A DNA stretch of 64,000 bases from Naumannella halotolerans (lineage in GTDB: Bacteria; Actinomycetota; Actinomycetes; Propionibacteriales; Propionibacteriaceae), in contig NZ_SOAW01000001.1 in the NCBI RefSeq assembly GCF_004364645.1, positions 1,302,001-1,366,000 of the forward strand. The letters run 5' to 3'. Each line of letters begins with the position of its first letter. Position 1 is the stretch's first letter. The translations under genes and the position numbers were made by a program. Below are positions 2,285 to 34,022 of the stretch, piece by piece. The notes under the pieces are model-generated. The model was not told where the DNA came from. It was given only the letters and a program-made list of their open reading frames with translations, and searched no databases.

Positions 2285-3462
2285 CCCCGGCGCAGAAGTC
2301 CCCGGTGGCCGCGTCCGGATCGGCATCCTCGATCGGGCAGATCCTGCAGCCCGGCCAGGGACCGATCGACGGTGATCATTACCTGCCGGCCGGACCGGAC
2401 ACGGTGAGCTGGGGGCGGTTGCCATGCCGGACCGACTCGCCGGTGCTGCGGATCGCACCGGGTCAGAGCGTCACCATCGACACCGTCAGTCACGAGGGAG
2501 TCCTGGAGGACCAGGGCAAGGACCCCCTGACCTACTTCACCGGACACGGTGTGCCTGCCGACCAGGTGCTGACCGATGCCATCGCCATCGCCGCCGAACT
2601 CGCCCGCGATCCGATCGCCGACGGTCCGCATGTGGTGACCGGACCGATCCTGGTCGAGGGGGCCCGGCCCGGTGACCTGCTCAAGATCACCGTGGAGCGG
2701 CTGCTGCCACGGGTGCCGTACGGCGTGATCTCCAACCGCCACGGCAAGGGTGCGTTGGTTGGTGAGCTCCCCCGTGCCGAGCACAACGTCAGTGTCTTCA
2801 CCCCGGTGATCGAATCCGGTGGCGCGCTGTTCGGCAGCCTGCCACTGAGCGAGGGGGGCGCGGCCGAGGTCAGCTTCGCCCTGGCCCCCTTCCTCGGCAC
2901 CATGGGGTTGGCCGTGGACAGTGATCAACATCCGCATTCGGTACCGCCGGGCGCCTTCGGCGGCAACATCGACATCAAGCTCCTGACCGAGGGAGCGGTG
3001 CTCTTCCTGCCGGTGCAGGTCGACGGTGCGCTGGCCTATGTCGGTGACCCGCACTTCGCCCAGGGCGACGGTGAGGTGGCGCTGACTGCGCTGGAGGCGT
3101 CCTTGCGGGCGACCCTGCGCTTCGACGTGGTCAACCGTGCCACTGCGGTACAGGAGTTCGGCCAGATCAGCGGCCCGCTGGTCCGGACCGACGAATGGCT
3201 GGTACCGACCGGTCTGGATCCGGACCTGAACCTGGCGATGCGCAAATGTGTCCGGGCCGCCCTGGATCTGATCATGGCGCGTTGGGGTATGGACGAACAC
3301 CTCGCCTATGCCTATCTCTCGGCGGCCACCGACTTCGACATCTCCCAGGTGGTCGACATCGTCTGTGGTGTCCATGCCCGGATCCGGGAGAGCGATTTCG
3401 ACCAGCCGACGCCCCCTGCCGCAGCGGACCCGGCACCAGCCGAGAAGGAAGGCGATCGATGA
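2281..3462 (+). CDS. Acetamidase/formamidase family protein
   Basis: 393 residues from the ATG that overlaps the allB stop. It matches the FmdA/AmdA family of zinc amidases: LEDQGKD near the N-terminus, the central segment GPILVEGARPGDLLKI, HPHSVPPGAFGGNID, and GDPHFAQGDGEV with the conserved metal-site His and the GDGE motif. Family members release ammonia from formamide or small amides. Inside a ureide operon it may act on a small amide formed late in the pathway, for example oxamate, or on formamide; that is inference. It overlaps the next gene by four bases (ATGA), so the two are translationally coupled. Confidence 0.85.
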   Translation: MTPAQKSPVAASGSASSIGQILQPGQGPIDGDHYLPAGPDTVSWGRLPCRTDSPVLRIAPGQSVTIDTVSHEGVLEDQGKDPLTYFTGHGVPADQVLTDAIAIAAELARDPIADGPHVVTGPILVEGARPGDLLKITVERLLPRVPYGVISNRHGKGALVGELPRAEHNVSVFTPVIESGGALFGSLPLSEGGAAEVSFALAPFLGTMGLAVDSDQHPHSVPPGAFGGNIDIKLLTEGAVLFLPVQVDGALAYVGDPHFAQGDGEVALTALEASLRATLRFDVVNRATAVQEFGQISGPLVRTDEWLVPTGLDPDLNLAMRKCVRAALDLIMARWGMDEHLAYAYLSAATDFDISQVVDIVCGVHARIRESDFDQPTPPAAADPAPAEKEGDR

Positions 3463-5063
3463 GCGACCACCCGATCCGCGGAGCCGAAGCAGTTCCGGCG
3501 GACCTGCTGCAGGCATTCGACGCCTACGAGCGGGCGATCATGATCAACGACCTCGATGCCCTCGACGATGCCTTCGCGCCCGGCCCGGGTTCGATGCGCG
3601 GGGACAATGCCGGACTGCTCGTCGGTCACGACGCGATCAGCGCCTTCCGCGGCACCCGCGGCGGCGTCCCGCCACGCGTGATCGAGCGCGTGGAGTACCG
3701 CGAGCTGGGCCCCGGGGTCGCGCTGTTGATCTCGGTCTCCCGATTCAACGGTGGCGGCACCGGGCTGCAGACCCAGGTCTGGCAGCTGATCGACGGGCAG
3801 TGGTTGATCACCGCCGCCCATGTCACCCCCCGCGCCCAAGCGCTGGACCGCTCGGTCTGGCGATCGGTCGGCGATCCCCTGTGGCAAGGAGCCTGGGAGG
3901 GCCCGCTGGCCGGCCTGACGGTTGCGGTGAAGGACCTGTTCGCGGTCAAGGGTTACCGGATCGGGGCCGGCAACCCGACCTTCCTCAACGAGTCGCGGGC
4001 GGAGAAGACGATGGCTCCCGCGGTCGGTGACCTGATCCAGGGCGGAGCTTCGCTGCGCGGTATCGCCCGTACCGACGAGTTCGCCTACTCGATCGCCGGC
4101 GACAACGCCCACTACGGGACCCCGCCGAACGGTGCCGTCGCCGGTGCCCTGCCCGGCGGTTCGTCCAGCGGTGTGGCCACGGCGGTGGCCACCGGTCAGG
4201 CGGAGATCGGTCTGGCCACCGACACCGCCGGCTCGATCCGGGTACCTGCTTCCTACCAGGGTCTGTGGGGACTGCGCACCACCCACGGGCTGGTCCCCCG
4301 TCAGGGACTGCTGCCCCTGGCGCAGTCGTTCGACACGGTCGGCTGGCTGACCCGTCGCGGGGATGTCCTGGCCCGTGTCGTCGACTGGTGCCTGAACTCC
4401 GACGAGACGATCACCGAGACCCCCAGCCCCGACCTCGACCTGACGTTGCGCTTCGCCGTACCGGTCGAGGTGCTGGCGGCCACCGAACCCGACACCCGCA
4501 GCGCCTTCGAGGAACTGACCGGACGACTGCAGGCGATCGGGGCAGAGGTCACCGAGGTCGAACTGGGTGATCTCGACGACTACTACGAGCCGTTCCGGCT
4601 GGTCCAGGGGGCGGAGGCCTGGCGGAACAACGGTGACTGGGTCGATGCCCACCCCGGAGCGCTGGGAGCGGCCGTCGCCGAACGATTCGCCACCGCGGCG
4701 AAGATCAGCGAACAGACCGAGGACGACGCCCGGGCACAACTGGGCGAACTCCGGGCACGATTGCGCGACCTGGTCGGCGACACGGTGATCTGGATGCCGA
4801 CCGTACCGGGACCGGCGCCGATGCGGACCGCCAAGGGCGACCGCGTCGATGCGGTACGCCATGCCACCTTGCGGATGACCACCCCGGCGGCGATCGGCGG
4901 GCTGCCTGCCCTGTCGATCCCGCTGCTGAGCGTCGACTCCCAGCTGGGACCGGCCCCGGTCGGTGCGTGCGTGATATCGACACCGGGAAGCGACGCCGCT
5001 CTGGTACGACTGGGACTGCAGTTGGCCGACCGGCTCGCCCCCGACCACGAAAGGACGTCATGA
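3459..5063 (+). CDS. AtzH-like domain fused to an amidase-signature hydrolase
   Basis: 534 residues with two domains. Residues ~8-130 resemble the AtzH/HpxZ (DUF3225) NTF2-like fold, including FRGTRGG and the VWQLIDGQWLITAAHVT end. Residues ~145-534 are an amidase-signature enzyme with the complete Ser-cisSer-Lys triad: K158 (VAVKDLF), the GGSSSG loop (~233-238) and Ser259 in DTAGSIRVPAS. In Pseudomonas ADP and Klebsiella, AtzH/HpxZ and AtzE/HpxY are separate proteins encoded together, acting on 1-carboxybiuret-type or purine-derived ureides. Here they are one chain. Because the next gene makes oxalurate, oxalurate or a related N-carbamoyl acid is the likely substrate (inference). Overlaps both neighbours by four bases. 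Confidence 0.85.
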   Translation: MSDHPIRGAEAVPADLLQAFDAYERAIMINDLDALDDAFAPGPGSMRGDNAGLLVGHDAISAFRGTRGGVPPRVIERVEYRELGPGVALLISVSRFNGGGTGLQTQVWQLIDGQWLITAAHVTPRAQALDRSVWRSVGDPLWQGAWEGPLAGLTVAVKDLFAVKGYRIGAGNPTFLNESRAEKTMAPAVGDLIQGGASLRGIARTDEFAYSIAGDNAHYGTPPNGAVAGALPGGSSSGVATAVATGQAEIGLATDTAGSIRVPASYQGLWGLRTTHGLVPRQGLLPLAQSFDTVGWLTRRGDVLARVVDWCLNSDETITETPSPDLDLTLRFAVPVEVLAATEPDTRSAFEELTGRLQAIGAEVTEVELGDLDDYYEPFRLVQGAEAWRNNGDWVDAHPGALGAAVAERFATAAKISEQTEDDARAQLGELRARLRDLVGDTVIWMPTVPGPAPMRTAKGDRVDAVRHATLRMTTPAAIGGLPALSIPLLSVDSQLGPAPVGACVISTPGSDAALVRLGLQLADRLAPDHERTS

Positions 5064-26072: not shown

Positions 26073-28013
26073 ATGTCCGACGACCCGACAACCGATGCAC
26101 TGCGCTACGGCGGTCTCGCCGGCTGGGACCTGGAAGGTTTCCACACCGGCGCCGACACCGAGATCTGGAAGCGGCTCGGGTCCCACCTGGTCACCGTCGA
26201 CGGTCCCGAGGGTCCGGTCAGCGGCACCCGCTTCGCGGTCTGGGCACCGCAGGCCAAGGCGGTCTCGGTCCACGGCGACTTCAACGACTGGTCCGGCCAG
26301 CCGATGGAACTGCTGCCCGGCACCGGCGTCTGGGTCGGTTTCGTCCCCGGCGTCGGTGCCGGTGCGCTCTACAAGTACTCGGTGCAGACCCAGTGGGGCG
26401 AATGGCTGGAGAAGGCCGATCCCATGGCCCGTTATGCCGAGATCCCGCCGGCGAGCGCCTCCATCGTCTGGGAATCCGACTACACCTGGTCGGACCAGGA
26501 ATGGCTGGAGCGCCGGGCCGAGGCAGATCTGCACGCCGAACCGATGAGCATCTACGAGTTGCATCTCGGCTCCTGGCGCAAGGGCAAGAGCTACCGCGAG
26601 GTCACCGAGGAACTCGTCGAGTACGTCACCTGGCAGGGGTACACCCATGTCGAGCTGCTGCCGCTCAGCCAGCATCCCTACGAGCCGTCCTGGGGCTATC
26701 AGGTCACCGGGTACTTCGCGGCACAGTCGACCTTCGGCAACCCCGATGATCTTCGCCACCTGATCGACCGGCTGCACCAGGCCGGTATCGGAGTGATCAT
26801 GGACTGGGTTCCCGGTCACTTCCCGAAGGATTCCTGGGGTCTGGGACGTTTCGACGGCTCCGCCCTCTACGAGCACGCCGATCCCCGCCAGGGTGAGCAC
26901 CGCGACTGGGGCACCTACATCTTCAACTACGGCCGCAACGAGGTGAAGAGCTTCCTGGTCTCCAATGCGCTGTACTGGTTGACCGAGTTCCACGTCGACG
27001 GGCTGCGGGTCGATGCCGTCGCCTCGATGCTCTACCTGGACTACTCCCGCGAGGAGGGCCAGTGGGTGCCGAACATCTACGGCGGCCGGGAGAACCTGGA
27101 GGCGATCGACTTCCTGCGCTACGTCAACTCCCACCTGCAGAAGCGGGTTGCCGGGATCGCCATGATCGCCGAGGAATCCACCTCCTTCCCCGGAGTCACC
27201 CTGCCGGTGGAGGAAGGCGGCCTGGGCTTCACCTTCAAGTGGAACATGGGCTGGATGAACGACACCCTGTCCTACATCGAGGACGACCCGATCTATCGGC
27301 AGTACCACCACAACAACCTCACCTTCGGTCTGGTCTACGCCTGGAGTGAGCACTTCATCCTGCCGATCAGCCATGACGAGGTGGTGCACGGCAAGGGATC
27401 GATGATCAACAAGGTCCCGGGCGACGACTGGCAGAAGTTCGCCACCCTGCGCGCCTACTACGCCTTCATGTGGAGCCACCCGGGCAAGCAGTTGCTGTTC
27501 ATGGGATCCGAGTTCGGCCAACGGCCGGAGTTCAACGAAGCGGTCAGCCTCGAGTGGTGGGTCAGCGACCTGTGGGGTCACCACGGACTGCAGTTGTTGT
27601 TGCGTGACCTGAACCGGGTCTACCGTTCACACCCGGCGCTGTACACCGCCGACAGCGACCCGGCCGGATTCGCCTGGATCGACGCCGGTGACGCATCGGG
27701 CAACACCATCTCCTTCCTCCGCCGCGGGACCGGCGGGGAGCAACTCGCGGCAGTGATCAACTTCTCGCCCGTACCACGGGAGGCGATGACCATCGGCCTG
27801 CCGTCGACCGGTAGCTGGCACGAGGTGCTGAACACCGATTCCGAGATCTACGACGGAACCGGGAAGTACGGCAACCTCGGCCAGGTGGAGGCGCTCGCCG
27901 AACCGTGGAACGACTTCCCGGCACGGGCGAGCGTGGTCGTCCCGCCGATGGGAGCGGTCTGGTTCAGCCAGGACCCGGTCGAGCAGAACCCGGGACACGA
28001 GTCGGATCGGTGA
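26073..28013 (+). CDS. glgB: 1,4-alpha-glucan branching enzyme
   Basis: 646 residues starting at the ATG at 26073, seven bases after a GAGG site. CBM48 domain (VSGTRFAVWAPQAKAVSVHGDFNDW) then a GH13_9 barrel: MDWVPGHFPKD, nucleophile D314 in LRVDAVASMLYLDYSR, acid/base E367 in IAEESTSFPGVT, and LPISHDEVVHGKGS. It makes alpha-1,6 branches in the glucan produced by GlgE. The extra N-terminal N1 module of some GlgB proteins is absent or minimal. It shares GTGA with the next start. Confidence 0.95.
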   Translation: MSDDPTTDALRYGGLAGWDLEGFHTGADTEIWKRLGSHLVTVDGPEGPVSGTRFAVWAPQAKAVSVHGDFNDWSGQPMELLPGTGVWVGFVPGVGAGALYKYSVQTQWGEWLEKADPMARYAEIPPASASIVWESDYTWSDQEWLERRAEADLHAEPMSIYELHLGSWRKGKSYREVTEELVEYVTWQGYTHVELLPLSQHPYEPSWGYQVTGYFAAQSTFGNPDDLRHLIDRLHQAGIGVIMDWVPGHFPKDSWGLGRFDGSALYEHADPRQGEHRDWGTYIFNYGRNEVKSFLVSNALYWLTEFHVDGLRVDAVASMLYLDYSREEGQWVPNIYGGRENLEAIDFLRYVNSHLQKRVAGIAMIAEESTSFPGVTLPVEEGGLGFTFKWNMGWMNDTLSYIEDDPIYRQYHHNNLTFGLVYAWSEHFILPISHDEVVHGKGSMINKVPGDDWQKFATLRAYYAFMWSHPGKQLLFMGSEFGQRPEFNEAVSLEWWVSDLWGHHGLQLLLRDLNRVYRSHPALYTADSDPAGFAWIDAGDASGNTISFLRRGTGGEQLAAVINFSPVPREAMTIGLPSTGSWHEVLNTDSEIYDGTGKYGNLGQVEALAEPWNDFPARASVVVPPMGAVWFSQDPVEQNPGHESDR

Positions 28014-28774
28014 ACATCGACTGCACGATCGGTGCCGACCGGATCGCCCGGTTGGTCTGGGACCGGTCCCCCGAACCCGATGAACTGCGGGAGACCGCCG
28101 AACGGGCACTGGCCGAGGTCGAACGGGTGGAGGTCGAGGTCGCCGCTCCCGACCGGGTGGTACGCCGAGCGCTGCATCTGGCGGGGTTCCGGCTCGAGGG
28201 CACCCGCCGGCGCGCCGGCCGCGGGGCGGACGGGTCGACGGTCGACGTCGATCTGTACGGCCGCCTGCGGGAGGACGACACCGGTGGTCAGTCCGGTTTC
28301 TCGGCGGTGATGAACTCGGTCCTGCCGCGTACCCGGTCGATCGCCCATGTGCTGTTCCACCGCGACCGTGAGGGCGGCCGGGAGTACCTGTTCTGCCAGA
28401 CCCTGTTCAAACCCGACTGGGAACTCCCCGGCGGTGTGGTGGAGCGCTTCGAATCCCCCCACACCGCGGCCACCAGGGAGGTGCTGGAGGAACTCGGGCT
28501 GGAGGTCGAGCTCGGGGACGTCCTCGCCGTGGACTGGCTTCCGCCCTACCTGGGTTGGGACGATGCCGTGGAGTTGATCTTCGACGGTGGGGTGCTCAGC
28601 GAGGAGCAGCTGGACTCGATGGTGCTGCAGCCCTCGGAGATCGAATCGGTGCACTGGCGCCGGGCGGCCGATGCCCTGGACCAGTTGCGCCCGGGGGCCG
28701 CCCGGCGGTTGCAACACATCGAATCGGAACCGAATCGGACCTGGTACCTCGAGGACGGCAACCCGGTGGGCTGA
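28010..28774 (+). CDS. NUDIX hydrolase with an N-terminal GNAT-like tail segment
   Basis: 254 residues from a GTG overlapping the glgB stop. Residues ~100-250 form a NUDIX domain; the full Nudix box runs from GGVVERFE through REVLEELGL (about residues 143-166). Residues ~1-75 (VVRRALHLAGFRLEGTRRR) resemble the C-terminal half of a GNAT fold, but no acetyl-CoA motif A is visible, so this part is probably not catalytic. Substrate unknown; coupling to glgB hints at a nucleotide-sugar or housekeeping role. The stop codon lies inside a terminator stem. Confidence 0.8.
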   Translation: MNIDCTIGADRIARLVWDRSPEPDELRETAERALAEVERVEVEVAAPDRVVRRALHLAGFRLEGTRRRAGRGADGSTVDVDLYGRLREDDTGGQSGFSAVMNSVLPRTRSIAHVLFHRDREGGREYLFCQTLFKPDWELPGGVVERFESPHTAATREVLEELGLEVELGDVLAVDWLPPYLGWDDAVELIFDGGVLSEEQLDSMVLQPSEIESVHWRRAADALDQLRPGAARRLQHIESEPNRTWYLEDGNPVG

Positions 28775-28795
28775 GACAAGCCCACTCAGCCCACC
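28765..28795. terminator. Bidirectional terminator, NUDIX / oligopeptidase
   Basis: Perfect 11-base inverted repeat (ggtgggctgag / ctcagcccacc) around a 9-base loop. It contains the NUDIX stop and ends 14 bases before the stop of the convergent gene. Confidence 0.7.
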
Positions 28796-28808
28796 GCGGT
28801 CGGCCGGC

Positions 28809-31397
28809 TCATTCGGTGATGCCGATGCCGTCGAGCAGGAAGGCGTAGTCCCAGGCGACCTCTTCCCATCCCTTGTAGCGACCGGAACCACCACCGTGTC
28901 CGCCGTCCATCTCGATCTTGAACACGATGGGCTCGGTGCCGGTGCTCACCTCCCGCAGCCGCTGCACCCACTTGGCCGGTTCGACGAAGAGCACCCGGGT
29001 GTCGTCCAGGCTGGTGACCGCGGCGATCCGGGGGTAGTCGACCGCCCGGATGTTCTCGTAGGGGGTGTAGGCCTTCATCGCGGCATAGACCGCGGGGTCG
29101 GTGATCGGGTTTCCCCACTCCTCCCACTCCAGCGCCGACAACGGCAGGTCCGGGTCGAGGATCGAGGTCAACGCGTCGACGAACGGGACCTGGGCGACGA
29201 TCACCGCATAGAGCTCCGGGGCGAGGTTGGCCACCGCGCCCATCAGCAGGCCGCCCGCCGAACCGCCCATGGCGCCGATCCTGGACCGATCGGCCCAGCC
29301 GGCATCGATCAGGTACCGGGTGGAGTCGACGAAGTCGGTGAAGGAGTTGATCTTCGCCAGCTTCTTGCCCTCGACGTACCAGCCGCGCCCGAGCTCCCCA
29401 CCACCGCGGACATGGGCGATGACATAGACGACACCACGGTCGAGCAGACTCAGCCGGGAGATGCTGAAGCCGGGGTCCATCGAGATCTCGTAGCTGCCGT
29501 AACCGTAGACGATGCTCGGGTGCGGCCCGTTGTCCGGACTCAGATCGGCACGCCGGATCACCGTCAGCGGGATCTGCGTACCGTCGGCGGCACTCGCCCA
29601 CTCCCGCTCGGCGCGATAGGCCTGCGGATCGTATCCACCGCGTACCGGGTTCTCCTTGCGCAACAGGAGTTCTGCGGAGTCGGGTACGAAATCGTAGACC
29701 CGTGCCGGGGTCAGATAGGTCTCGTAGACCAGCCGGACGAGCGGCGCCTGCAGATCCGCGGCGATCAGCTCGACCGAATGCAGTTCGGCCTCGAACTCCG
29801 GGGTCTGCAAGGTCACCTCACCGGCGGTGATCTCGGTCAGGGGCACATATCCGATGGTGGGAACGGTGTCGCGCCGCAGGCCGACGAACAACTGCCCGGC
29901 GGCCGGGACGGCCGAGGTGATGCGTACCCGGTCGTCATGCGGTACGACGGTACGCCAGACCTGTTCGGCACGCGGGAGGGAGATCTCCTCGGCCGCCAGG
30001 ATCGAGACCATCGAGTTCCGGGCGCCGTCGGAGTCATGGGTGATGATCAACCAGCGCTGGGAGTCGATGTCGACCGGTTCGACGCTGTACAGCACCCCGG
30101 CGTCGCGACCGAGCACCACCTGCGGTTCGGCTGCGGGGTCGGTGAGGTCGAGCAGCTGGTTCTCGCTCACCTCGGAATTGCCGATGCCGATGATCAAGGT
30201 CCGGTGATCGGCCGAGCGGTCGATGCCGGTCCACATGGTCGTGTCGTCCTCGGTCCAGATCACCTGGTCGGCCTCGGCGGCGGTCCCGAGCAGATGTCTG
30301 CGCACCTGGTACGGGCGCCAGGAATCGTCCACCACCAGGTAGAAGATCGCCGAGGCATCCGGTGCCCAGACCGGTCCGTAGAAGGTGTTCGGGATCTCGT
30401 CGGCGAGTTCGTCACCGGTCCGCAGGTCACGCACCTTGAGGGTGAACTTCTCGTTGCCCGCATGGTCGACGGCATAGGCCAGCAGGTTGCCGTCGTCGCT
30501 CACCGTCGCCGCCCCCAGGGAGTAGAAGGCATGCCCGTCGGCCTCGGCGTTCTCGTCCAGCAGGATCTGCTCCTGCGCCGGCGGATCGTTCGGGTCGATC
30601 ACCGGTGGGGTCCAGTCCTGCCCACCGGCCGGCACCCGGCAGTGCAGGCCGTACTGCTCGCCCTCCACCATCCGGCCGTAGTACCACCAGTCCCCCCGGC
30701 GGCGTGGCACCGACAGATCGGTCTCCTGGGTACGGGCCTTGATCTCGTCGAAGATCGACTGTCGCAGCTTCGCCTGACCGGCGGTGACCGCCGCGGCGTA
30801 ATCGTTCTCGGCGTGCAGATGCGCCAGCACCTGCGGGTCGTCGCGGTCCCGCAGCCATTCGTAGTCGTCGACGAAGGTCTCGCCATGATGGGTACGGGTG
30901 ACCGGCCGCTTCTCGGCGATCGGTGCCTGCAGGGGCTTCACGTACAGATACTCCTTGGTCTGGGAGAGGTCGTTGAGCTCTCTCACGTCACTGCGTCTGC
31001 TGAATCCCAGGCGCTCGTAGAGTCGGTGGGCATCGGTGAACCGGGTGTCGGTCCACAAGATCAACTCGCGGCAGCCGGCATCGGCGGCAGCCGTTTCGGC
31101 CGCCCGGACCAGCGCCGCGCCGAGCCCCGAACCGCGAGCCTGCGCGGCAACGTAGAGCGATTTCAGTTCGGCGGCACCAGCTGCGGGCCGCCAGCCGACG
31201 CTGGCGACCAGCACACCGTCACGCTCGAGCACCCAGAGGTCACCGGCATGCTCGGCCCAGGCCGTGGCCGGGGAGCGCATCCAGGGTTCCTCGGCGTCGA
31301 CGTCGAGGATGATCCCGGGATACTCGGACCAGATGCCACCGATCAGCTCGATCAGTGCCGCGGAATCGGTGTCGCGAACCGGGCGCAGATCCTCCAC
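28809..31397 (-). CDS. GNAT acetyltransferase fused to oligopeptidase B (S9A)
   Basis: 862 residues in one uninterrupted frame. Residues 1-~155 form a complete GNAT domain: LKSLYVAAQARGSGLGAALV is motif A, RLYERLGF is motif B, and it ends with YLYVKPL, a common GNAT terminus. From ~157 (EKRPVTRTHHGETFVDDYEW) onward it is a full prolyl oligopeptidase: seven-bladed propeller, then the hydrolase domain with the Ser in GAMGGSAGGLLMG and the His in DGGHGGGSGRYKGW. Oligopeptidase B cleaves short peptides after basic residues and is normally about 700 residues alone. The fusion is unusual. The ATG at 31397 is the first start; an internal start giving the peptidase alone is not obvious. Confidence 0.88.
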   Translation of the reverse strand: MEDLRPVRDTDSAALIELIGGIWSEYPGIILDVDAEEPWMRSPATAWAEHAGDLWVLERDGVLVASVGWRPAAGAAELKSLYVAAQARGSGLGAALVRAAETAAADAGCRELILWTDTRFTDAHRLYERLGFSRRSDVRELNDLSQTKEYLYVKPLQAPIAEKRPVTRTHHGETFVDDYEWLRDRDDPQVLAHLHAENDYAAAVTAGQAKLRQSIFDEIKARTQETDLSVPRRRGDWWYYGRMVEGEQYGLHCRVPAGGQDWTPPVIDPNDPPAQEQILLDENAEADGHAFYSLGAATVSDDGNLLAYAVDHAGNEKFTLKVRDLRTGDELADEIPNTFYGPVWAPDASAIFYLVVDDSWRPYQVRRHLLGTAAEADQVIWTEDDTTMWTGIDRSADHRTLIIGIGNSEVSENQLLDLTDPAAEPQVVLGRDAGVLYSVEPVDIDSQRWLIITHDSDGARNSMVSILAAEEISLPRAEQVWRTVVPHDDRVRITSAVPAAGQLFVGLRRDTVPTIGYVPLTEITAGEVTLQTPEFEAELHSVELIAADLQAPLVRLVYETYLTPARVYDFVPDSAELLLRKENPVRGGYDPQAYRAEREWASAADGTQIPLTVIRRADLSPDNGPHPSIVYGYGSYEISMDPGFSISRLSLLDRGVVYVIAHVRGGGELGRGWYVEGKKLAKINSFTDFVDSTRYLIDAGWADRSRIGAMGGSAGGLLMGAVANLAPELYAVIVAQVPFVDALTSILDPDLPLSALEWEEWGNPITDPAVYAAMKAYTPYENIRAVDYPRIAAVTSLDDTRVLFVEPAKWVQRLREVSTGTEPIVFKIEMDGGHGGGSGRYKGWEEVAWDYAFLLDGIGITE

Positions 31398-31417
31398 CGC
31401 CTGGGCTCGACGGCCGC

Positions 31418-32338
31418 TCAGAACAGTGCCGTCATCAGGTCTCGCCGGGCCTTCAGAACCGCCGGATCCTTCGGGTCCACCACCTCGAACAGTTCCAGCA
31501 GCCGCTGCCGGACCCGCTCGCGGTCATCCCCGGCGGTACGCCGCACGACCCCGACCAACCGGCCGAACCCGGCCGCCGCGTCACCGCCGACGATCTCGGC
31601 GTCCGCGGCGGCCAGCTGGGCCTCGACATCTGCGGGCGCGGCCTCGGCCGTCGCGATCACCGCCTGCGGATCGATGCCGGCGCCGACCGTGCGGGCGAGC
31701 AGGCCGACCTGGGCCTTACCTGCCCTGGCCTCGGGATCGTTCGGGGTCTCGGCCAACAGCTTGGCGTACTCGGCCTCGGCGGCGGCGTAGTCACCGGCGG
31801 CCAGGGCAGCGTCGGCGGCCTCGAAACGTGGATCGGCCGGGGGCTCTGCACCCTCGTCGGACTCGGCTTCGGCGCCCTGGGACGGTGCGGTGCCGACGAT
31901 CCCGTTGGCCACCGCGGTCTGCAGCACCTGATCGATCACCGCCCGCACCTGGTCGGCGGGTTGGGCACCTTGGAACAGCGGGGCCAACTGCCCACCGAGG
32001 ACCGCCACCACCGTCGGCACGGCCTGCACCCCGAGCGCCTGGGCGATCTGGCCCTCGGTGTCGACATCGACCCGCCCGAGCAGGAACCTGCCACCGGAGG
32101 AGTTCGCCAGGTCGGCCAGGGTACGGCTCAACTCCGCCGTGCCCTCCGCCCTCGGTGACCAGAACTCGACCACCACCGGATACCTGACCGACTCCCCCAG
32201 CACCTGCTGGAAGTTCACCTGGGTGATGTCGACGACGAAACTGCCGCCACCGGCCTGTGCGCCGGTGGACTGCGGGGCCTGCGCCTTGGCCTTCAGGGCC
32301 GAAAGGTCCATGGCGCCACCAAAACTGGAAGAACTCAT
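31418..32338 (-). CDS. Thioredoxin-fold TPR protein (YbbN/CnoX-like), no CXXC
   Basis: 306 residues from the ATG at 32338. Residues ~30-140 are a thioredoxin fold, but the active-site position reads EFWSPRAEGTAEL, so the redox CXXC is missing. The C-terminal half has tetratricopeptide-type helices (ADAALAAGDYAAAEAEYAKLLAETPNDPEARAGKA is read in two parts). Actinobacterial YbbN-like proteins share this loss and are thought to be chaperone-like rather than redox enzymes. A CAGAAT box six bases before the ATG suggests a leaderless mRNA from a promoter back-to-back with pgm. Confidence 0.82.
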   Translation of the reverse strand: MSSSSFGGAMDLSALKAKAQAPQSTGAQAGGGSFVVDITQVNFQQVLGESVRYPVVVEFWSPRAEGTAELSRTLADLANSSGGRFLLGRVDVDTEGQIAQALGVQAVPTVVAVLGGQLAPLFQGAQPADQVRAVIDQVLQTAVANGIVGTAPSQGAEAESDEGAEPPADPRFEAADAALAAGDYAAAEAEYAKLLAETPNDPEARAGKAQVGLLARTVGAGIDPQAVIATAEAAPADVEAQLAAADAEIVGGDAAAGFGRLVGVVRRTAGDDRERVRQRLLELFEVVDPKDPAVLKARRDLMTALF

Positions 32339-32384
32339 GACCCCATTCTGGCAGGCCCGGCCGACGACACGGCAGGATAGGGCC
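32339..32384. promoter_or_regulatory. Back-to-back leaderless promoters (ybbN-like / pgm)
   Basis: Only 46 bases separate two divergent start codons. On the minus strand CAGAAT (32345-32350) is six bases from its ATG; on the plus strand CAGGAT (32373-32378) is six bases from the pgm ATG. The -35 region of each promoter must lie in or near the other one, so the two are likely to interfere with each other. Confidence 0.55.
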
Positions 32385-34022
32385 ATGGCACACGAGCGGG
32401 CCGGTCAACCGGCGCAGTCCTCCGACCTGATCGACGTCGACGCGGTGCTGGCCGCGTACCACGAGATCGTCCCGGATCCGACGAATCCGGACCAGCAGGT
32501 GGTCTTCGGCACCTCCGGTCACCGGGGCTCCAGTCTGGACGGCGCCTTCAACGATCTGCACATCGCCGCCACCACCCAGGCCATCGTCGAGTACCGGGCC
32601 TCGCAGGGGATCACCGGCCCGGTGTACCTGGGCAAGGACACCCACGCACTGTCCCTGCCCGCCTGGCGTACCGCCACCGAAGTGCTGATCGGCAACGACA
32701 TCGCGGTCCGCGCCGAGCGCGAGGACGAGTACACCCCCACCCCGGCCCTGTCCCGAGCGATCGTGGTGCACAACGCCGACCCCGCCAATGCCGGTGCACC
32801 CGCCGACGGGATCGTCGTCACCCCCTCGCACAACCCGCCCCGCGACGGCGGGTTCAAATACAACCCACCGCACGGCGGGCCCGCCGACACCGATGCGACC
32901 AAGGCCATCGCGGCCCGGGCCAACGCACTGCTCGCTGACCCGGCGGCCATCCGGAGGGTCACCTACGCCGTGGCCGAGCCGCAGGTCGAGCGCTTCGACT
33001 ACCTGAGCCTGTACATCGACGGACTCGCCGAGGCGATCGACCTCGACGCGATCCGCAGGTCGGGACTGCGGATGGGGGCCGATCCGATGGGCGGTGCCAG
33101 TGTGCACTACTGGCAGGCGATCGCCGAGCGTCTGCAGCTCGACATCACCGTCACCAATGACACCGTGGACCCGGCCTGGTCGTTCATGACCCTGGACACC
33201 GACGGCAAGATCCGGATGGATCCCTCCTCCCCCGACGCGATGGCCTCCCTGCTGGCCAACCGCACGGCCTACGACCTGTCCACCGGCAACGACGCCGACT
33301 CCGACCGGCACGGGATCGTCACCCCCGATGCCGGGCTGATGAACCCCAATGCCTACCTGGCCGTCGCCATCGGCTACCTGTACACCCACCGCAGCGGATG
33401 GCCGCAGGGCATCGGAGTCGGCAAGACCCTGGTCTCGTCGTCGATGATCGACCGGGTCGTCGCCGATCTCGGCCTGAATCTGGTGGAGGTGCCGGTCGGC
33501 TTCAAGTGGTTCGTTCCCGGTCTCAGCGACGGAACTCTCGGCTTCGGCGGGGAGGAATCGGCCGGAGCCTCCTTCCTCACCCGCGACGGCCGGACCTGGA
33601 CCACCGACAAGGACGGGATCCTGCTCTGCCTGCTGGCCGCGGAGATCCTGGCCGTCACCCAGAAGACCCCGTCGCAGCTGTACTCGGAGTTGACTCACCG
33701 ATTCGGGGAGCCCGCCTACTCCCGGATCGACGCCTCAGCCGACCGGGAGCAGAAGGCGCGGCTGGCAGCCCTCTCCCCGGCCGATGTCACCGCCACCGAA
33801 CTGGCCGGCGAGCCGATCACCGCGGTGCTGACCAAGGCACCCGGCAACGATGCCCCGATCGGCGGGATCAAGGTCACCACCGAGAACGCCTGGTTCGCCG
33901 CCCGGCCCTCCGGCACCGAGGACAAGTACAAGATCTACGCCGAGTCGATGCGCGGCCCGGAACATCTGGCGCAGGTGCAGGCCGCCGCCCAGGACGTGGT
34001 GTCGCGGGCGCTGGGTGATTGA
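32385..34022 (+). CDS. pgm: Phosphoglucomutase (alpha-D-glucose specific)
   Basis: 545 residues, the size of the Pgm of Escherichia coli type. FGTSGHRGSSLDGAFN is the family start, the phosphoserine is S148 in VTPSHNPPRDGGFKYN, the magnesium loop is GNDADSDRHGI, the sugar-binding loop GFGGEESAG, and the phosphate-binding loop ARPSGTEDKYKIYAES. It interconverts glucose 1- and 6-phosphate and links glycogen to glycolysis. Its last codons and stop lie in the first copy of a 20-base tandem repeat. Confidence 0.96.
   Translation: MAHERAGQPAQSSDLIDVDAVLAAYHEIVPDPTNPDQQVVFGTSGHRGSSLDGAFNDLHIAATTQAIVEYRASQGITGPVYLGKDTHALSLPAWRTATEVLIGNDIAVRAEREDEYTPTPALSRAIVVHNADPANAGAPADGIVVTPSHNPPRDGGFKYNPPHGGPADTDATKAIAARANALLADPAAIRRVTYAVAEPQVERFDYLSLYIDGLAEAIDLDAIRRSGLRMGADPMGGASVHYWQAIAERLQLDITVTNDTVDPAWSFMTLDTDGKIRMDPSSPDAMASLLANRTAYDLSTGNDADSDRHGIVTPDAGLMNPNAYLAVAIGYLYTHRSGWPQGIGVGKTLVSSSMIDRVVADLGLNLVEVPVGFKWFVPGLSDGTLGFGGEESAGASFLTRDGRTWTTDKDGILLCLLAAEILAVTQKTPSQLYSELTHRFGEPAYSRIDASADREQKARLAALSPADVTATELAGEPITAVLTKAPGNDAPIGGIKVTTENAWFAARPSGTEDKYKIYAESMRGPEHLAQVQAAAQDVVSRALGD

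Follow-up and report, generated by a model that had tools for sequence, protein, structure and literature searches.

A rare fusion of a GNAT acetyltransferase with an oligopeptidase B, found in a single genus

A single frame with two enzyme domains

The window (the whole 64,000-nt stretch of DNA analyzed here) contains a frame of 862 codons that starts with GTG and, in an open-reading-frame check of the window, has no internal stop (Table 1). Pfam placed three domains along its product: Acetyltransf_1 at residues 35–132 (E 1.9e-17, 64 bits against a gathering score of 20.7), Peptidase_S9_N at residues 160–581 (E 1.6e-82, 278 bits) and Peptidase_S9 at residues 643–858 (E 1.9e-58, 197.9 bits). 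GNAT relatives remain aligned through residues 149–150 of the fused protein, and query residue 158 pairs with chain residue 3–4 of the Serratia oligopeptidase B (OpB) structures, so nothing is missing at the N-terminal end of the OpB part. The domains join at about KPL/QAPIAEKRP, with no dedicated linker between them, which is where the sequence-only reading of this DNA had placed the joint; its claim that a complete GNAT and a complete S9A oligopeptidase share one frame was borne out by Pfam, by the alignments and by the counterpart in G001, a second species of the same genus. A 1,067-aa open frame also runs antisense to the fused gene (28587–31790, plus strand); since antisense frames overlie other genes of the window too, we attribute it to the codon usage of high-GC DNA.

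Table 1. Features of the fused gene and its neighbors (window coordinates)
Feature	Position	Strand	Evidence
Fused gene, GNAT plus OpB, 862 aa	28809..31397	−	Open frame; Pfam; same architecture in G001
GNAT acetyltransferase part, codons 1 to about 156	30930..31397	−	Pfam Acetyltransf_1; alignment with 10 relatives
OpB part, codons about 158–862	28812..30926	−	Pfam S9_N and S9; PDB OpB chains over 158–855
Possible internal OpB start at the joint: AAGGAG, 9 nt, GTG (codon 153); window species only	30939..30956	−	Sequence; G001 comparison
Catalytic Ser, S713 (SpOpB S532)	29259..29261	−	Structure alignment; invariant in 32 OpB rows
P1-reading Glu, E757 (SpOpB E576)	29127..29129	−	Structure alignment; invariant in 32 OpB rows
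Catalytic Asp, D799 (SpOpB D617)	29001..29003	−	Structure alignment; invariant in 32 OpB rows
Catalytic His, H834 (SpOpB H652)	28896..28898	−	Structure alignment; invariant in 32 OpB rows
Thioredoxin-TPR gene, upstream, 20 nt before the fused start	31418..32386	−	Pfam Thioredoxin and TPR_20
NUDIX gene, convergent, other side, start uncertain	27905..28774	+	Pfam NUDIX

Residues 158 (approximately) to 862 are, judged by alignment, a full-length S9A oligopeptidase B with propeller and hydrolase. PDB chains of OpB aligned over residues 158–855 with 461 bits; the highest-scoring prolyl endopeptidase chain reached 200 bits. The OpB of Serratia proteamaculans (SpOpB; protease II, PtrB; EC 3.4.21.83, S9A; PDB 7ywp), for which PMC9917282 describes the roles of the triad and a glutamate that reads basic residues at P1, has the same full length, propeller, hydrolase, triad and P1 glutamate; it is free-standing, whereas the fused protein carries a 156-residue GNAT ahead of its OpB. 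The OpB part missed the cut-off of the NCBIfam equivalog PRK10115 (444.9 against 1313 bits), which is made for close orthologs, and thus the miss argues against "the enterobacterial enzyme" and not against the OpB family. The AlphaFold model of the fused protein (mean pLDDT 74.1) covers most of the OpB with confidence; pLDDT is below 50 in the OpB stretches 634–640, 666–669, 679–681, 740–752 and 833–839, the last of which holds the H834 loop, and also over residues 1–155, so the GNAT has no usable model.

The GNAT part contains the stretch R88-G89-S90-G91-L92-G93, which we take to be the acetyl-CoA loop motif; R88 and G91 are invariant in the 11 rows aligned (the window GNAT and 10 relatives) and G93 is replaced by A in many of the relatives. 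No NCBIfam GNAT class (RimI, ArsN, AAC, MshD and others) scored above its cut-off, the best being ArsN2 with 42.2 against 125 bits. Additionally, the four neighbors scanned (glgB, NUDIX, thioredoxin-TPR and phosphoglucomutase genes) gave no pointer to a peptide substrate for the GNAT.

G001 carries an unbroken version of 875 aa, 69% identical over residues 4–860 (61.8% over the GNAT and 70.6% over the OpB). The sequence-only reading had named a stop at the joint in relatives as evidence against its proposal; in the one same-genus relative checked, G001, there is no stop and the frame is uninterrupted. For this single species pair, analyzed with a simple method (NG86), dN/dS was 0.37 in the GNAT and 0.28 in the OpB; the propeller by itself gave 0.34, and the neighboring thioredoxin-TPR gene 0.22. 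These ratios indicate that both parts evolve under purifying selection, which acts on the GNAT about as strongly as on the propeller; with only two species carrying the fusion, the estimate for the GNAT comes from one comparison.

The fused gene is flanked by the thioredoxin-TPR gene, presumably CnoX/YbbN-like, and on the opposite side by the convergent NUDIX gene and glgB. It is probably co-transcribed with the thioredoxin-TPR gene as an operon; in G001 the fused ATG overlaps the stop codon of that gene by one base. Active thioredoxins carry a CxxC pair; at this position the thioredoxin-TPR protein of the window has SPRA (FWSPRAEG). An ortholog of the thioredoxin-TPR gene was present in the 20 genomes searched, G001 plus 19 of 19 from other genera. 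Within its 1.5-kb flank, a match to NUDIX or glgB occurred in 9 of these 19 and neither in the other 10, and in one locus (L159) such a match begins about 27 bp past the thioredoxin-TPR gene; neither GNAT nor OpB lay beside it, within the same flank, in any of the 19. With the site empty in these 19 genomes, the most plausible view is that the fused gene was inserted into a long-standing neighborhood.

Distribution of the fusion and origin of its parts

Searches with the fused protein (the best two to four candidates per genome scored in the family, and two in the order and class samples) gave 14 matching genomes among 198 of the family at a threshold of E 1e-205. The match spans both parts in two of them, both of this genus; in the other 12 it begins at residue 148 or later (11 genomes) or, in G147, at residue 85 and across a TGA. 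With the GNAT alone as the query, 2 of 197 genomes of the family reached E 1e-12. Matches were obtained in 250 of 391 genomes of the order sample (E 1e-150) and in 7 of 394 of the class sample (E 1e-230) and, among the matches listed, none outside this genus begins before residue 85. A match occurs in 160 plasmid records, the best 30 of which all begin at query residue 135 or later. We also fetched the best 80 named loci of GTDB r220 as OpB matches, a set from which the window's own genome is possibly excluded; all 80 hold OpB, and the match starts before residue 130 in four.

A tblastn search of 122 loci with the GNAT, up to E 1, found no GNAT joined ahead of an OpB outside this genus, and matches were limited to six loci (L001, L004, L006, L035, L038 and L081). 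Several candidates were discarded: G147 (locus L009), L121 (G410) and four loci of Micrococcaceae whose matches start early (L044, L050, L051 and L054) have no GNAT match up to E 1, and in G246, where the match starts at residue 121 with no stop, the best GNAT match covers 15 residues with E 0.87. In L038, a different GNAT-like ORF (2787–3395; 37.5% identical over 56 residues) lies about 1.6 kb upstream of, and separate from, the OpB at 5001. The order sample lists four more early-starting matches (G226, G210, G387 and G238), all of them interrupted by stops. The search for the same architecture elsewhere, which the sequence-only reading had proposed, thus recovered it in G001 and, among the matches listed, nowhere outside the genus. 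The terms "oligopeptidase B" and "GNAT" occurred together in no open-access paper, a scope that leaves aside subscription papers and domain databases, and no GNAT–OpB fusion enzyme was found in the titles or abstract openings of the open-access literature. We conclude that this is a rare fusion, found in one genus, of two known enzyme families whose joining has no open-access report that we could find.

In a tree of 39 OpB rows, the two fusion species group with 12 Micrococcaceae (SH-aLRT 100). The free-standing OpB of Micrococcaceae (Arthrobacter and kin) is the nearest both in this tree and by identity (up to 61–62%), but it has no GNAT joined to it in the 80 loci fetched. Constraining the OpB to group with 16 OpBs of the family was 198.6 log-likelihood units worse (AU test, p-AU 3.6e-35), a penalty to which one of the 16 rows, L011, contributes because it itself groups with another family of the order; OpB exchange is therefore not unique to this genus. 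L011 (G024) is a family member whose OpB falls among order-level (f3) sequences and may represent another OpB transfer. The 39-row tree replaces an earlier one of 63 rows, with an unfinished search and a far paralog on a long branch, in which the fusion OpB grouped with Micrococcaceae with SH-aLRT 95. Incidentally, a record titled Vibrio cholerae strain 35D (L056, WNZI01000012.1) has an OpB that groups with Arthrobacter, and is probably mislabeled or contaminated.

In the phylum sample, 17 of 396 genomes matched the GNAT at E 1e-12; besides the window's own, 13 of 16 belong to f58, a distant actinobacterial family that holds the nearest relatives (38–54% identical). Since the OpB groups with Micrococcaceae and the GNAT is below threshold elsewhere in the family, two genes foreign to the family appear to have fused, or to have arrived fused, before the split of the two species.

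Readings of the fused gene

We consider it rather probable that this is a real two-enzyme fusion, in which two foreign genes were joined and are expressed mostly as one polypeptide with two working sites. What the sequences provide for this reading is one uninterrupted frame conserved in both species, the signature residues, purifying selection on the two parts, the position of the OpB in the tree and the empty site in relatives. A foreign, Micrococcaceae-type OpB would have been joined in frame, without a start of its own, to the very end of a complete foreign GNAT. The main product would be the full-length protein, most likely a single cytoplasmic polypeptide with two putatively active sites: the OpB part is predicted to cut small peptides after Arg or Lys, and the GNAT part to acetylate a small primary amine. 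The fusion would mainly provide fixed 1:1 co-expression rather than substrate channeling.

Somewhat short of an even chance, in our estimate, is that the fusion is neutral, i.e., that the genes of two unrelated enzymes had both reached the site when a stop and a start were lost between them, and that the joint does no more than co-express them. In f58, 19 of 35 genomes list both a relative of this GNAT and an OpB, yet on different contigs (17 genomes) or at least 0.6 Mb apart (2), which argues against a standing link between them, even if many of these genomes are drafts whose contig ends could hide one. All three f58 GNATs scanned with Pfam (L129, L134 and L135) are followed by an unrelated partner, Glycolipid_bind (PF06475), suggesting that this GNAT joins other domains easily; in these proteins the GNAT is also N-terminal, but the second domain is a putative glycolipid-binding domain instead of a peptidase. 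Three further relatives (L130, L132 and L136) have similar C-terminal tails. Against neutrality, the fusion has persisted since the two species, which differ at 31% of residues, diverged, and selection holds the GNAT about as tightly as the propeller; this, however, shows use of each part and not of the joint.

An internal start at codon 153 might yield most of the OpB alone from the same frame, the fusion being then a minor form or a by-product, which we regard as unlikely. Such a shorter product would have a mass of roughly 78 kDa, the full-length protein one of roughly 95 kDa. The GTG at this codon sits exactly where a free-standing OpB would begin and follows a strong ribosome-binding-like site; comparable sites precede 8 of 680 internal in-frame ATG, GTG or TTG codons in 21 window ORFs, codon 153 included. 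A comparable core site occurs at 1 of the 21 ORF starts, which were set mechanically and some of which may be wrong, and the fused gene's own GTG start has none. Being present in the window species alone, the site suggests that OpB may also be made alone there. G001 has GAG at the matching codon, so the internal start is not shared; its nearest start-like codon, a TTG three codons on, has no core site in the preceding 18 nt examined, and no start codon at the joint is common to both species. The frame, in contrast, is open through the joint in both.

Returning to the two-enzyme fusion, a putative action of GNAT and OpB on the same peptides, as the sequence-only reading had suggested, is a guess to which we give a low probability; its proposal that lysine acetylation could alter cleavage is a candidate effect that fits with the reading of basic residues by OpB. 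Two more specific candidate readings are, taken together, improbable. In the first, a cut-and-cap enzyme, the OpB would cleave imported basic peptides, e.g., proline-rich antimicrobial peptides, and the tethered GNAT would acetylate lysines or the freshly exposed amino ends, leaving fragments unable to act or rebind. Bacterial OpB is reported to contribute to resistance to proline-rich antimicrobial peptides, as PMC9917282 and PMC8533160 state with a citation. In the second, the GNAT would acetylate polyamines and the fusion would tune its own OpB; PMC8533160 reports that spermine moves a bacterial OpB into a partly closed, intermediate state. Tethered to an acetyltransferase, the OpB could conceivably form a detoxifying pair with it, but the plainer reading, in which a single message yields equal amounts of two enzymes that work independently, would fit as well.

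The bacterial OpB is much less studied than the protozoan enzyme, as stated in PMC8533160. If both sites act together, acetyl transfer would be tied to small-peptide breakdown in one molecule, and the fusion would offer a test case for the role of bacterial OpB. Otherwise, it would be a clear case of two horizontally acquired genes merging, with an empty site and free-standing relatives of both parts, to which the possible leftover start at the joint adds.

Finally, that an assembly or sequencing error erased a stop is so improbable as to be negligible: the independent genome of G001 has the same frame and stop-free architecture, which rules out a stop-codon or frameshift artifact, and the same slip would have been needed twice.
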